A stretch of DNA of 64,000 bases from Actinotalea endophytica (GTDB lineage Bacteria; Actinomycetota; Actinomycetes; Actinomycetales; Cellulomonadaceae): assembly GCF_025717005.1 (NCBI RefSeq), contig NZ_JAOVZU010000010.1:62001-126000 (forward strand), read 5' to 3'. Each line of letters begins with the position of its first letter. Position 1 is the first letter of the stretch. The translations under genes and the position numbers were made by a program. Positions 2 through 7,833 of this stretch are shown here, piece after piece. The notes below the pieces were generated by a model, which saw only the letters and a program-made list of their open reading frames with translations, had not been told where the DNA came from and did not search any database.

Positions 2-196
2 GAGGAGGAGGCGCTCAAGACCCTCGAGGTGCTGTCCTCGATGGGTGACATGGTGGCCGCCGAGCTCGAGACCATGGGGCCGGGGATGGACGCCCCCGCG
101 GTGGTCAGTGACGACGGCACGCCGGTGAGCGGAGCACTCGCGTCCGCGGCCGCGAGCCCACCCGCCGAGCGGTCCACCCAGGAGCCGACGCCGTGA
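2..196 (+). CDS. hypC: HypC-type hydrogenase maturation chaperone, C-terminal end (partial)
   Basis: Only the last 64 codons are in the window. The first visible residues ([17 protein letters not shown]) match the C-terminal helix of HypC, which chaperones the iron centre with HypD and delivers it to the large-subunit precursor. A 45-residue Ala/Ser/Pro-rich tail without family resemblance follows and is longer than usual for HypC. The TGA overlaps the GTG of hypD (GTGA), so the two are translationally coupled. The CxxxP start motif lies outside the window, so the call rests on the helix and the position. Confidence 0.7.
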
Positions 197-1305
197 AGTA
201 CCTCGACGAGTACCGCGACCCCGAGCTCGCCAAGACGCTGCTCGCCGAGATCCACCGCATCACGACCCGGCCGTGGACCCTGATGGAGGTCTGCGGCGGG
301 CAGACCCACACCATCGTCAAGCAGGGCCTGGACGAGGCCCTGCCCGAGGGTGTCCGGATGATCCACGGCCCGGGCTGCCCGGTGTGCGTCACCCCGCTGG
401 AGCAGATCGACAAGGCGCTCGCGATCGCCGCCCGGCCCAACGTCATCTTCACCAGCTACGGCGACATGCTGCGCGTCCCGGGCACCGACACGGACCTGCT
501 CGCGCTCAAGGCGCGCGGCGCGGACGTGCGCATCGTGTACAACCCGCTGGACGCCCTGAAGATCGCGCGGGACAACCCCGACAAGGAGGTCGTGTTCTTC
601 GCCGTCGGGTTCGAGACCACGGCCCCGGCCAACGCGATGGCGATCGCCCAGGCCAAGGCTCAGGGCATCGACAACTACTCGGTCGTCGTCAGCCATGTGC
701 TCGTGCCGCCGGCGATGACGTCGCTGCTCGACTCCCCCACGAACCAGGTGCAGTCGTTCCTGGCCGCCGGGCACGTGTGCGCCGTGATGGGCTGGACGGA
801 GTACGAGCCGATCGCCGCGAAGTACAAGACCCCGATCGTGGTCACCGGGTTCGAGCCGCTCGACCTGCTCGAGGGCATGCTCATGGCGATCCGCCAGCTC
901 GAGGAGGGCCGCCACGAGGTCGAGAACCAGTACGCCCGCGCGGTCAAGCGCGAGGGCGTGCCGCTGGCCCAGAAGCAGATCTTCGACGTCTTCGAGATCG
1001 GCGACCGGACCTGGCGTGGCGTCGGCGAGATCCCGCAGTCCGGGTACCACCTGCGCCCGGAGTACGCGGCCTACGACGCCGAGACCAAGTTCGAGGTCGG
1101 CGACATCCACACGCTCGAGCACCCGGCCTGCATCGCGGGCCAGATCCTCACCGGTGAGAAGCTGCCGATCGACTGCACCGCCTACGGCACGCTGTGCTCG
1201 CCGCAGCACCCCCTCGGCGCCCCGATGGTCAGCGCGGAGGGCACCTGCGCGGCCTTCCACGCGGCCAACCGCGGCCTGGACGCACGGAGAGTGAACGTCG
1301 GATGA
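193..1305 (+). CDS. hypD: [NiFe] hydrogenase maturation protein HypD
   Basis: This 370-residue protein is a typical full-length HypD, the iron-sulfur scaffold on which the Fe(CN)2CO group is assembled with HypC and HypE in the cytoplasm. Visible hallmarks are CGGQTH near residue 35, GPGCPVCV near 60, GFETTAP near 140, and the C-terminal cysteine region with TAYGTLCSP. The GTG start overlaps the hypC stop and the TGA overlaps the hypE ATG, so the genes form one cotranscribed, coupled cassette. It presumably matures the group 3b enzyme encoded leftward at 3.2-7.7 kb. Confidence 0.96.
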
Positions 1306-2360
1306 CGACCATCGACCCCTTGGCCCTCACCTGCCCGGTGCCGATCCCGGAAGGCTCGCGGGTGATCCTCGGGCACGGCTCGGGCGGCCAGCTGTCCGGT
1401 GCGTTGATGCGCGACGTGCTCGCGCCGTGCCTGGCCGACGCGTCCCCCGGCGGTCCGCTCAACGACGCGGCCGTGCTCGAGGTGGCCGGTGCGCGGATCG
1501 CCTTCACCACCGACTCGTTCGTGGTCTCGCCGCTGGTGTTCCCGGGCGGCGACATCGCCGAGCTCGCCGTCAACGGCACGGTGAACGACCTCGCGATGAT
1601 GGGCGCCCAGCCGGTCGGGCTGTCGCTCGCCTACGTGATCGAGGAGGGCCTGCCGCTGGAGGACCTCGGCGGGCTCACGGCGTCGGCGGCCCGCGCGGCC
1701 GCGGCGGCCGGCACCAGGATCGTCACGGGCGACACCAAGGTCGTCGGGCGCGGGGCCGCGGACAAGATCTTCATCAACACCGCCGGGATCGGCGTGGTGC
1801 CGGCCGGGGTGCAGCTGGGCGCGGACCTCGCACGCCCGGGCGACGTGCTGCTGCTCTCCGGGCCCATCGGGCTGCACGGCGTGGCGATCATGAGCGTGCG
1901 CGAGGGGCTGGAGTTCGAGGCCGAGATCGCCTCCGACACGCAGTCGCTGAACAGGCTGGTCGCGGCGATGCTCGCGGTCGAGCCCGGCATCAAGGTCCTG
2001 CGCGACCCGACCCGCGGCGGCCTGGCGTCGGCGCTCAACGAGATCGCCGAGGCGTCGGGCGTCGGCATGGTGCTGGACGACGCGGCGGTGCCGATCCCGG
2101 ACCCGGTGCGCGGCGCCTGCGAGATGCTCGGCCTGGACCCCTACCACGTGGCCAACGAGGGCAAGCTCGTCGCCGTCGTGCCGGCCGAGACGGCGGACGA
2201 CGTCCTGGCAGCGATGCGCGCGGTCCCGGCCGGCGAGGGCGCGGTCCGGATCGGCGCGGTCGTGGCCGAGCACCCCGGGATGGTCACCGCCCGCACGCTC
2301 GTGGGATCGGAGCGGATCGTCGACATGCTGGTCGGCGAGCAGCTCCCGCGGATCTGCTGA
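1302..2360 (+). CDS. hypE: Hydrogenase maturation factor HypE (carbamoyl dehydratase)
   Basis: HypE dehydrates the carbamoyl group placed by HypF on its C-terminal cysteine, giving the thiocyanate that becomes the CN ligands of the active-site iron. The 352-residue protein ends in the diagnostic PRIC with Cys as the last residue. It carries the ATP-binding N-terminus [17 protein letters not shown] and the PurM/AIR-synthase-like fold motifs TGDTKVV and [10 protein letters not shown]. The start at the ATG inside the hypD stop (ATGA) is preferred over upstream in-frame codons because it gives the family N-terminus. hypA, hypB and hypF are not in the window. Confidence 0.96.
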
Positions 2361-3169: not shown

Positions 3170-3649
3170 TCAGCGCTGCAGGACTCGCAGCACCTCGGCC
3201 GCCGCGGCGGGCACCGCGTCCGCGACCGGGCCGGTCAGGGCCTCACCCCAGCCGAAGGACTGCGCCTCGACGCCGACCACGACGACCTCGGGCAGCCGGT
3301 CGAGCGCGCGGGCGAGCTCGACGGCGCTCGCCAGGCCGAAGTCGTGCGACCCGGCCTCCTGGGCGTGCCCCTCGGTCAGCGGGGGCTGGTCCGGACCGGT
3401 GCGCACCACGTGCAGCGTGCCCGCGGGCGACCCCGACCGCACCGCGTCGCACACCACGCTGAGCGTGCAACCGGCCCACAGCTCGATGAGCGCGGTCGGG
3501 TCGTGCCGTTCGACCACCTCGACACCCGGCAACGGCGAGTCGGCCAGTCGTCGCGCGACCTCGCGCGCCACGGCCGACCCGACCGCGTCGTCACCGCGCT
3601 CGGGCGCCCCGAGACCGACCACCACCCGCCGCGCCCGCGGGCGGGGCAC
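3170..3649 (-). CDS. [NiFe] hydrogenase maturation protease (HyaD/HycI family)
   Basis: This 159-residue protein begins with the family signature [16 protein letters not shown] and keeps the acidic residues that bind nickel in the substrate (the Glu/Asp of ERGDD, and CDAV in mid-protein). Such proteases cut the large subunit after the His of its DPCxxCxxH motif once nickel is inserted. The GTG at 3649 is chosen because it directly precedes the signature and lies exactly where the large subunit should stop. The same frame stays open upstream to 3910, but that part is out-of-frame large-subunit code. It is the last gene of the hydrogenase operon. Confidence 0.85.
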   Translation of the reverse strand: MPRPRARRVVVGLGAPERGDDAVGSAVAREVARRLADSPLPGVEVVERHDPTALIELWAGCTLSVVCDAVRSGSPAGTLHVVRTGPDQPPLTEGHAQEAGSHDFGLASAVELARALDRLPEVVVVGVEAQSFGWGEALTGPVADAVPAAAAEVLRVLQR

Positions 3650-4947
3650 CCCCGGTCCACCGTGAGGTTGAGGAAGTGCACGGAGCAGGAGATGCACGGG
3701 TCGTAGTTGCGGATCGCGACCTCGGCACGCAGGGTGAGGTCCTCGTCCGACATCCACATCCACTCGGTCGCCAGCTCGCGCAGGTCGCCCTCGATGCTCG
3801 GCTGGTTCTGCGAGGTCGGCGGTGCGATCTGCGCGTCGGTCACCATGCCGCTGTCGTCGATCTTGTACCGGTGGAAGCACAGGCCGCGGGGAGCCTCGGT
3901 GGCGCCCCACCCCTCGCCCTCACGCGGCGGCACCGGCACGGAGGCGGGCAGGCCGTCGACCCACGAGTCGATGATCCGGATCGCCTCGTGGAACGCCTCG
4001 ACGGTCTCCACGGCGCGCACGATGATCGACTTGAACGGGTTGTAGCAGGTCTCGCCGAGGCCGGCGTCCCGTGCGGCCTGCTGCGCCAGCGGCGACAGCC
4101 GGTCGAAGTTGAGCGAGTAGCGGGCGAGCGGCCCGACCACGTAGGGCTCGCCGTCGAGCACGCCGTGCAGCGCGTTGGAGTGCTCGACGTGCACCTCCTC
4201 GACCTGCTCGACGAACTCCCGGACGCTCCAGTCGTCGCCGCGGCTGGTGACGATCCGTCCCGACTCGATCGGGTAGCCGGTCTCCGGGCGCAGCGAGACG
4301 TAGAGGTACGGCCGGTCGAAGTCCGGGTACTCCAGGCCGGCGGTGAACCGCACCGTCTCCAGGGCGTCCTCGAGCCCCTGGACGAGGGCAGGGCGCAGGG
4401 CCAGCATGTCCGCCACCGACGGCATCTTGTAGAAGCCGCCGACCTTGGTGTTGACCGGGTGCACCGAACGACCGCCGACCAGCGTCATCAGCTCGTTGCC
4501 GGCCTTCTTCATGCTCAGCCCGCGCTTGACCTCCGCCGGGAAGTCCTTCGCCATCTCGATGGCGCCGGCGTAGCCCATGAAGTCCGGTGCGTGGAGCATG
4601 TAGACGTGCAGGGTCTGGGACTCGATCCACTCCCCGCAGTACAGCAGTCGGCGCAGCGCGTGGACCGAGTCCGGCACGGTGACCCCGCACGCGTCCTCGA
4701 TCGCCATGCAGGCGCTGAACTGGTACGCGACCGGGCAGATCCCGCAGATCCGGGCCGTCAGGTCGGGCAGCTCCATCATCGAGCGGCCGCGCAGGAAGGC
4801 CTCGTAGAAGCGCGGCGGCTCGAAGATGTTGAGCTTGACGTCGTCGACCTTGCCGTTGCGCAGCGACAGGTGCAGACCGCCCTCGCCCTCGACGCGGGCC
4901 AGGACCTCGACCGAGAGCGTGCGCTCGCTCGTGGGCTGCATGCTCAT
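3376..4947 (-). CDS. hyhL: Group 3b [NiFe] hydrogenase large (catalytic) subunit, with an abnormal 90-residue out-of-frame C-terminal run-on
   Basis: The catalytic subunit of a cytoplasmic NAD(P)-linked hydrogenase binds the NiFe centre through RICGIC (C68, C71) and DPCISC (C418, C421). Up to residue 433 it matches the expected length of about 430. The processing site after H424 is followed by FLNLTVDRG, where the gene should stop. Instead the frame continues for 90 Arg/Ser/Trp-rich residues that are simply the protease gene read in another frame. Adding one A after 3647 would give a TGA overlapping the protease GTG, as in the other junctions of this operon. Either a one-base deletion or a sequence error is likely. 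The true coding end is probably near 3647. The start overlaps the small-subunit stop (ATGA). Confidence 0.9.
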
Positions 4948-5765
4948 GCCTCAACCTCCTCCGCGCCGGCCTTCCGCGCCCGCTCGTGCCGCATGCTCTC
5001 CGCGTGGAAGGGCTCGCACGTGGCGTTGAAGGTCCGGTACGCACGGACCATCTCGTCGTTGGTCATGCCGAGGGCTGCCAGGCGGTCGGCCATCCCGTGG
5101 CAGTTCTGGGAGTCCTGCGGGCCGAAGCACGCGTAGCAGCCACGGTTGAACGACGGGCAGATCGCGCCGCAGCCGGCCTGGGTGACCGGGCCGAGACAGG
5201 GCTCGCCGCTCACGACCGGCACGCAGATGTTCCCGGCGCGCTTGCACTCGACGCAGACGCTGTACGTCGGGATCCGCGGCCTGCGCCCCTGGGCGAACGC
5301 CGCGATCACCTCGACGAGCTGGTACTTGTCGACCGGGCAGCCGCGCAGCTCGAAGTCGACCTTGACGTGCTCGGAGATCGGCGTCGAGGTCTCGAGCGTC
5401 TCGATGTACTCGGGGTGGGCGTACACGTAGCGCGTGTACTCCTCGACGTCGGCGTAGTTGCGCAGTGCCTGGATGCCACCGTGGGTGGCGCAAGCACCGA
5501 TCGTGATGAGCACGCCGGACTGCTCGCGCACCATCTTGATCCGCTCGATCTCCTCGGGCGTGGTGATCGAGCCCTCGACCAGGGACACGTCGTAGGGACC
5601 GGGCAGCATCGTGCGGGTGGCCTCGGGGAAGTAGGCGATGTTCACCGTGTCGGCGACCTCGAGGAGCTCGTCCTCGGCGTTGAGCAGGTTGAGCTGGCAA
5701 CCGTCGCACGAGGCGAACTTCCACACCGCCACGGTGGGCTTGGTGCGCACCGCTGTCGTCGTCAT
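4944..5765 (-). CDS. hyhS: Group 3b [NiFe] hydrogenase small subunit (delta, three Fe-S clusters)
   Basis: This 273-residue electron-transfer subunit has no twin-arginine signal, as expected for a soluble cytoplasmic enzyme. Cluster ligands are visible as CDGCQ near residue 19, a central [16 protein letters not shown] near 144, [25 protein letters not shown] and GCYACFGP. Together they relay electrons from the NiFe site to the diaphorase subunits. It overlaps the gamma gene by one base at the start and the large-subunit gene by ATGA at the end. Confidence 0.94.
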
Positions 5766-6592
5766 CAGAGCTCCTCAGTGGCGAGCAGGGGCACGAGCTG
5801 GTCGTAGCTGAACACCGGGCCGTCGACGCACATGAACGCCTCGCGGAGCTGGCAGTGGCCGCACAGCCCGATGCCGCAGTGCATCGATCGCTCGAGGGAC
5901 AGCCGTACCTTCTGCGGCGGGACGGCCCGGTCGGTCAGCGTCTTGGCGGCGACCTCCATCATGATGTCGGGGCCGCACGCGAGGGTGAGCAGCATCGCGG
6001 GGTCGAACGACGGATCGTTGACCACGTCGGCGAGGCCGGCGCGCACGCCTTGGTGCACCGTGAAGCCGTGCAGCCGCTCCCACTCCTCGATCTCGTCCGT
6101 GAACAGGAAGCCCTCACCGGGCCGGGAGCCGTACAGCAGGATCACCCGGCGGAACTCGCCGCGGCGGCGGACCGCCTCGAGGATCGAGGGGCGCAACGGT
6201 GCGAGCCCGATGCCCCCGGCGATGAACATCAGGTCGCCGCCGACCGCGTCCATCGCGTCCCAGGAGGTCCCGAACGGGCCACGGACGCCGATCACGTCGC
6301 CGACCTTGGTCTGGGTCAGCGCGTGGCTGACGGCGCCCACGTCGCGGATGGTGTGCCGCAGCGGCTCGCCCGGCAGGGCCCCACCGGAGATCGACACGGC
6401 GATCTCACCGACGCCGAAGGCGTAGAGCATCATGAACTGGCCGGATCGCCAGTGGGCCTGCTCGCCGTACAGCGGGATGAGGTCGAGCGTGGCGGTGTCG
6501 TGGGTGTCCTGGCGCCGGGCGACCACGCGGTACGGCCGCGGGGTCATCGGGCCGGGAGCGGTCACGTCGGCGGCGACGTCGGTGGCGGTCAT
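5765..6592 (-). CDS. hyhG: Group 3b hydrogenase gamma subunit (FAD/NAD(P)-binding reductase)
   Basis: This 275-residue ferredoxin:NADP reductase-like subunit is the diaphorase half that exchanges electrons with NAD(P)H. An FAD-binding barrel comes first, then the pyridine-nucleotide site [16 protein letters not shown] in mid-protein. A C-terminal 2Fe-2S site reads [11 protein letters not shown] followed by [13 protein letters not shown]. The ATG at 6592 overlaps the stop of the beta gene (ATGA) and gives the normal length, so the open frame further upstream is out-of-frame beta code. Group 3b enzymes have also been reported to reduce sulfur or polysulfide; nothing in this sequence decides that. 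Confidence 0.93.
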
Positions 6593-7731
6593 CGGGCCTC
6601 TCCTGCGGTCTCCAGGTCGGTCTCGGGGTCGGCCAGGCTCGCCCGCAGCGCCGCGGCCTCGGCGGTGATGTCGATCGCCGCGGGGCACCAGGTGATGCAG
6701 CGCCCGCACCCGACGCAGCCCGAGAGACCGAACTGCTGCTGGTAGCCGGCCAGCTTGTGGGTGATCCACTGGCGGTAGCGGGACTTGCCGCTCGCCCGGA
6801 CCACGCCACCGTGGATGTAGGAGAACCTCGCGCCGAAGCACGAGTCCCACACCCGGTGTCGCTCGGTGGTCGACATCGACAGGTCGGTGCTGTCCTCGAC
6901 CGAGGTGCAGAAGCACGTCGGGCACACCAGCGTGCAGTTGGTGCAGGCGAGGCAGCGGGCGGCGACGGTGTCCCAGTGCGGGCTGTCCGCGGCAGCGAAC
7001 ATGAGCTCCGGGAGCCCTTCGGTGTCCAGCGTGCGGCCCATCGACGCGGTGGCCTCGGCGACCTGGGCGTCGACCGCGGCGAGGTCCGACTCGGCGGCCT
7101 CGGCGGTGGTGACCTGCGCGAGGACCTCGGCGCCGCGCTCGCTGCCGACCTCGACCACGAACCGGTGGCCGGCGTCGTCGACGAGCTCGGTGAGCGCGAG
7201 GTCGTACCCGTCGCCGGGCTTGGGGCTGCCGCCCTGGGAGACGCAGAAGCACGTGCCGCAGGGGTCCGCACAGCTCACCGCGACGACGAACACGCCGTCG
7301 CGGCGCTGGCCGTAGGACTTGTCCGCGAACTCGCGCGAGCTCAGCACGGTGTCGTGCACCGCGAGGGCCCGCAGGTCGCAGTCCCGGGCACCGAGGAAGG
7401 CCCGCGGACGCGCCGGCGCCTCCGGCTCCTCGAGGTCGAAGCCGATCGGCGTCTTGCGGATCCGGACGAGCAGCTCGTCGGAGGGGAACAGCACCGGCTT
7501 GAGCCCTTGGGCGGCGGCCGCGTAGCCGAACAGGCGGTCGTCGCCGCGGTCACGCAGGCGGTAGCGCGCTGCGTCCTGCTCGTCACCGACGCCCCGCGGC
7601 AGATCGGCCACCCCGCTGATCGGCGCGAGCACGATCGCTCCGTCACGTACGCGCGGGCCGAAGACCTCGTAGCCCGCGCCGTCCAGGACGGCGACGAGCT
7701 CGTCGATCGCCGCCAACCCCATCGTCCGCAT
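6589..7731 (-). CDS. hyhB: Group 3b hydrogenase beta subunit (two [4Fe-4S] ferredoxin motifs)
   Basis: This iron-sulfur subunit of about 380 residues belongs to the hydrogenase/sulfur-reductase beta family and links the gamma flavoprotein with the hydrogenase core. Typical motifs are CDLRAL, CADPCGTCFC, and near the C-terminus CLACTNCTLVCPTCFC and CVGCGRCITWCP. The start at 7731 follows GGAGGG (7735-7740) with a short spacer. In-frame ATGs at 7755 and 7722 are alternatives. It is the first gene of the five-gene operon, and the palindrome at 7834-7849 lies about 100 bp upstream. Confidence 0.92.
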   Translation of the reverse strand: MRTMGLAAIDELVAVLDGAGYEVFGPRVRDGAIVLAPISGVADLPRGVGDEQDAARYRLRDRGDDRLFGYAAAAQGLKPVLFPSDELLVRIRKTPIGFDLEEPEAPARPRAFLGARDCDLRALAVHDTVLSSREFADKSYGQRRDGVFVVAVSCADPCGTCFCVSQGGSPKPGDGYDLALTELVDDAGHRFVVEVGSERGAEVLAQVTTAEAAESDLAAVDAQVAEATASMGRTLDTEGLPELMFAAADSPHWDTVAARCLACTNCTLVCPTCFCTSVEDSTDLSMSTTERHRVWDSCFGARFSYIHGGVVRASGKSRYRQWITHKLAGYQQQFGLSGCVGCGRCITWCPAAIDITAEAAALRASLADPETDLETAGEAR

Positions 7732-7833
7732 GTGCCCTCCAAGCGACGTCGGCATGACGCCAAGCGTGGGCCATGGGGGCCAACCGGGGGGAGGACGAAG
7801 GTCGCTACTTCCCCACTCTTGACCTGCGCAAAC

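Follow-up and report, generated by a model that had tools for sequence, protein, structure and literature searches.

The large-subunit gene of a [NiFe] hydrogenase from Actinotalea endophytica, located in a stretch of 64,000 nucleotides that was analyzed as a whole (hereafter the window), runs past its normal end into the gene of its maturation protease. Comparison with the nearest congeners makes it very probable that this gene has undergone a private one-base stop loss and that no tail has evolved. Since the difference is private and confined to one base, the gene is still a member of its family by descent. Most likely, the loss of a stop codon at this conserved overlapping stop/start is recent or artefactual and does not represent a new way of enzyme maturation.

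The large-subunit gene and its overrun end

Large subunits of [NiFe] hydrogenases carry the motif RxCGxC near the N-terminus and the motif DPCxxCxxH near the C-terminus. Both CxxC motifs, RICGIC and DPCISCSVH, are present in the protein encoded by the minus-strand open reading frame 4947-3376 (523 codons plus stop), identifying it as such a subunit. The last residue of the second motif, H424, is the expected processing site and is followed by FLNLTVDRG (residues 425 to 433). As sequenced, the short, stop-terminated extension that should follow the histidine is replaced by 99 residues, compared with 7 to 21 in the 79 other distinct loci read. The initial annotation had reported that the frame overruns its expected end at residue 433 and adds 90 residues of out-of-frame protease code, and the translation bears this out, the protease using another frame; the junction likewise reads GGGGTGCCCC as it had been given there. 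The coordinates of all features are listed in Table 1.

Table 1. Features of the hydrogenase region, numbered from the first letter of the window
Feature	Position	Strand	Basis or remark
hypD	193..1305	+	TIGR00075, 478 bits over 192.8
hypE	1302..2360	+	TIGR02124, 413 bits over 251.6; counterparts 94% and 90% identical in congeners
Hydrogenase maturation protease (HycI/HyaD type), intact, 159 aa	3170..3649	-	TIGR00072, PF01750, conserved columns
[NiFe] hydrogenase large subunit, probable group 3b type, as sequenced	3376..4947	-	523 aa; PF00374, 97.7 bits over 25.8
Read-through tail, 90 residues plus stop, in a frame unused by the protease	3376..3648	-	22 Arg, net charge +20
Codon 434, TGC; stop TGA in both aligned congeners	3646..3648	-	Gapless junction alignment
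FLNLTVDRG, normal C-terminal extension of 9 residues that follows the expected cleavage site at H424	3649..3675	-	9 residues also in 64 of 79 other distinct loci
Hydrogenase small subunit	4944..5765	-	PF01058; top NCBIfam matches HydD and ShyD, below cut-offs
FAD/NAD(P)-binding subunit (gamma type)	5765..6592	-	NCBIfam matches, all below cut-off
4Fe-4S subunit (beta type)	6589..7755	-	Top NCBIfam matches ShyB and HydB, below cut-off

The nearest congeners found were MAG62 (G014; 94% protein identity in the large subunit) and A. lenta SYSU T00b441 (G006; 87%), and their operons (L034 and L035, respectively) are collinear with the window from hypD to past the 4Fe-4S subunit gene. In both of them an intact TGA stop overlaps the GTG of the protease gene, in agreement with the initial annotation, which had taken such an overlap to be the normal arrangement, whereas the window lacks that stop. 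The junction reads GTGGACCGGGGGTGA in MAG62 and A. lenta and GTGGACCGGGGGTGC in the window, and it aligns without a gap; a gap, of three bases in A. lenta, first occurs 14 columns beyond the site. The simplest reading of a gapless junction is that one A was changed to C at position 3646 (minus-strand letters), which turns TGA into TGC. The initial annotation had instead assumed a missing base, with one extra A restoring the TGA on the protease GTG. An inserted A does create TGA in the large-subunit frame, but the alignment indicates an A-to-C substitution with no base lacking, and the protease frame of the window is unchanged relative to its conserved GTG (3649-3647), as in both congeners, and would be broken by the insertion. 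On account of the gapless alignment with both congeners this repair was rejected, and a missing base in the sequence is scarcely credible.

The C-terminal ends of related large subunits were surveyed at 103 loci, of which 96 were read after seven contig stretches (L043-L049) had been left out; at most 30 loci were taken per search, which put nine matches of the class-level search as well as secondary weak matches outside the survey, and the order- and class-level searches were samples of 396 and 394 genomes, respectively. Nine of the loci read, all of them distant matches, are without the motif, and the 87 with the motif include 7 duplicate rows, leaving 80 distinct loci with that of the window. 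Among the other 79, the tail after the histidine measures exactly 9 residues in 64, 14 residues in six of a distant kind (DPCM[AS]CAVH) and 7 to 21 residues in nine, and a tail of more than 21 residues occurs in none. The stop codon is TGA in 77 of these 79 loci and overlaps an ATG, GTG or TTG in 66; at 54 loci, the six distant ones being excluded, a frame of at least 100 residues is open from the overlapping start. The initial annotation had made the comparison with orthologs decisive for the question whether the tail is a trait, and with 0 of 79 loci carrying it a tail shared among orthologs was rejected.

The tail itself, judged from its frame, is the product of protease code read in the frame of the large subunit. 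No Pfam match was found for it (3379-3651) at E 0.001, and a fusion to the protease was rejected because the two frames differ. In MAG62 and A. lenta this frame likewise stays open behind the genuine TGA, over 89 and 88 codons, respectively, so that the length of the tail means nothing; across 59 overlapping loci, the frame behind the stop is open for a median of 38 codons and for at least 90 codons in 15. A genuine long pro-peptide, that is, a 99-residue tail that evolved, serves in maturation and is removed by the protease, would fit the open frame and the normal first nine residues. However, its absence from every other distinct locus read, the shadow coding of the protease and the equally open frame behind the real stop of both congeners make such a pro-peptide very unlikely.

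Apart from its end, the large subunit retains 119 of 120 columns whose conservation in 73 others reaches 95%, compared with 118/122, 119/122, 120/121 and 120/120 in four controls. Comparison with MAG62 yields a dN/dS of 0.125 for this gene, and comparison with A. lenta one of 0.215. With A. lenta as the outgroup, 8 residues changed on the lineage of the window alone and 12 on that of MAG62 alone, giving no sign of decay on the former. All of the nine genes examined between 193 and 9822 are open in the window, and dN/dS does not exceed 0.354 against either congener in the seven genes for which a value was obtained. The 4Fe-4S subunit yielded no value because the congeners have a stop in the aligned stretch. 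The window frame opens (7734-7755) seven codons upstream of the ATG used by both congeners, each of which has a stop codon upstream of this conserved ATG; going by these alignments, the congener stop reflects an over-long frame start in the window and no lesion, and the ATG seven codons further in is the more likely start of the subunit. With open genes, low dN/dS values and conserved columns retained, a decayed operon is unsupported.

An overrun of this kind was also looked for in other genes by comparing 466 kb of this genome with 792 kb of A. lenta. From 475 reciprocal pairs of open reading frames, 120 were kept (at least 65% identity over 80 residues, with overlapping shadow frames removed). 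Only the hydrogenase large subunit overruns its A. lenta counterpart by at least 30 residues, while the A. lenta frame is the longer one in 2 of the 120 pairs and the ends lie within 5 residues of each other in 103.

Hydrogenase type, neighboring genes and protease

Match rank, the operon and the known features of these enzymes point to a hydrogenase of the group 3b type. The genes for the large, small, FAD/NAD(P)-binding and 4Fe-4S subunits adjoin, which is the four-subunit layout of group 3b [NiFe] hydrogenases, sulfhydrogenases 1 and 2 and HyhL; the window differs from these by the read-through of the stop. In NCBIfam, the large, small and 4Fe-4S subunits match sulfhydrogenase subunits best, and the best match of the FAD/NAD(P)-binding subunit is NF006220 (cytochrome-c3 hydrogenase subunit gamma), with ShyC in third and HydG in fifth place. 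Since the sulfhydrogenase models bear the names of subunits of particular enzymes and the scores stay below the equivalog cut-offs (NF040828, 268 bits vs 700; NF040832, 247.5 bits vs 880), no equivalog membership is claimed. Among solved structures, HyhL (5yxy) and sulfhydrogenase 1 alpha (9e15) rank highest for the large subunit; in the alignment with 9e15_B, a chain of 424 residues, residue 424 pairs with the final residue of that chain. In an excerpt of PMC7294309, the HyhL of 5yxy is that of the T. kodakarensis type. A gene for a VanY-like D-Ala-D-Ala carboxypeptidase (PF02557; 2424-3059, minus strand) is situated between hypE and the protease gene, and no counterpart of it was found in the compared stretches of both congeners.

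The protease gene extends from a GTG at 3649-3647 to a stop codon at 3172-3170. Its product scores 88.8 bits with TIGR00072 (cut-off 47.45) and 25.3 bits with PF01750 (cut-off 23; 24.8 bits in the genome search), and it stays below the narrower cut-offs of TIGR00140 and NF007777. It keeps all 17 columns on which 90% of 54 relatives agree, among them D20, D21, D68 and H102. The profile matches and the conserved Asp and His columns are those of a maturation protease; proteases of the HycI/HyaD/HybD type likewise match TIGR00072 and PF01750 over cut-off, and their Asp and His columns are retained in the window protein. The start of the gene, instead of sitting on the stop codon of the large subunit, here falls within the running large-subunit frame. 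Two Asp and one His of such proteases have been proposed to bind nickel (PMC12134894, in part), and in the window protein D20 or D21, D68 and H102 would be the corresponding residues. Residue 2 is Pro in the window and Thr in the congeners. For the protease, the search of solved structures gave no match at E 0.001.

Another large subunit of this type (L002, G000:C1:551333-552607), 68% identical and with a normal 9-residue tail, is encoded elsewhere in the genome (4.25 Mb in 20 contigs). It is located on another contig than the sole PF01750 match of the genome. One protein matches the protease of the window and PF01750 has one match, although a further protease of a more distant kind may have escaped detection, as the protease of the window itself barely exceeds the PF01750 cut-off. 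MAG62 and A. lenta likewise combine two large subunits with one HycI-type match per genome. A contig scan, which may omit the genome itself and near ones, yielded no second assembly of the species.

Recent mutation or sequencing error

From the consensus alone, a recent mutation and an error are inseparable, and we consider the choice between them as near even. The sequenced strain may have undergone a real mutation very recently, a reading to which we give about an even chance; the mutation would have produced a useless basic tail that is tolerated either because the hydrogenase is dispensable or because a second one is present. The second large subunit with its normal tail is consistent with this, as is the finding that 12 of the 19 genomes of the genus, this one included, lack any match to the enzyme at E 0.001. 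However, the class of change needed, A:T to C:G, is among the scarcer ones, with 21 of 454 changes on the lineage of the window, although A:T sites are themselves scarce here. Moreover, such a mutation would probably also disturb the sole HycI-type protease gene detected, and no other decay is seen in the operon genes.

A sequencing or consensus error, the cell having TGA and a plus-strand T being called G after GGG, appears to us a tentative reading with a chance somewhat below even. The plus strand reads GCGGG[G]CAC, where the congeners have T at the bracketed base, which corresponds to the motif GGT read as GGG; in an excerpt of one study, this was the strongest systematic Illumina error motif (PMC3295828). 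That the large-subunit gene is otherwise intact also agrees with an error. On the other hand, GGT-to-GGG changes are not enriched in the operon, with 1 of 454 changes on the lineage of the window, namely the site itself, and 1 of 304 on that of MAG62, both counted in the aligned blocks 1-2360 and 3172-7800. This absence of enrichment means that nothing points to a generally error-ridden assembly, for which the 120-pair overrun test gives no support either. Systematic errors tend to hit one read direction (PMC3295828, in part), and errors of that kind would often be overcome by the consensus.

Possible consequences for maturation

A real mutation would leave the precursor with 99 residues behind H424. 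Since the first nine residues of the extension are unchanged, the protease may still cleave after H424 in a nickel-dependent manner, if perhaps poorly. In the available text of PMC6769069, cleavage follows nickel insertion, and exchange of the whole extension in E. coli HybC left the protease specificity unchanged; R. eutropha HoxG without its extension was still active at a lower level (PMC7294309, in part). One proposal links the volume of the protease cleft to the size of the peptide that is removed (PMC12134894, in part), and by that measure a tail of 99 residues might be cut poorly. The ribosome translating the large subunit would pass the protease start without terminating there, and with large-subunit translation no longer ending at this start, the protease would probably lose its coupled initiation. 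With a single HycI-type gene detected for two large subunits, the second hydrogenase could also be affected in its maturation. We infer these effects on cleavage, coupling and the second enzyme; what the sequences show is the difference from the congeners, the conserved neighbors, the otherwise intact genes and the one protease detected. That the strain makes a precursor with a 99-residue basic tail encoded over the protease gene and that its own protease still removes this tail, the length of the extension thus being irrelevant to nickel-dependent processing, seems very improbable.

A real mutation would turn the strain into a natural test of how well the protease tolerates a long extension. 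In the excerpts of PMC6769069, PMC7294309 and PMC12134894, extensions are exchanged, mutated or removed only, and among the titles and abstract beginnings searched no description of such a case was found. The finding also calls for caution with GC-rich genomes, in which one changed base at an overlapping stop/start may lead to a long, plausible-looking fusion. Overlaps of stop and start are also present in six genomes of the same family (L019, L020, L021, L025, L027 and L028), where the DPCM[AS]CAVH hydrogenase has a 14-residue tail ending in TS.
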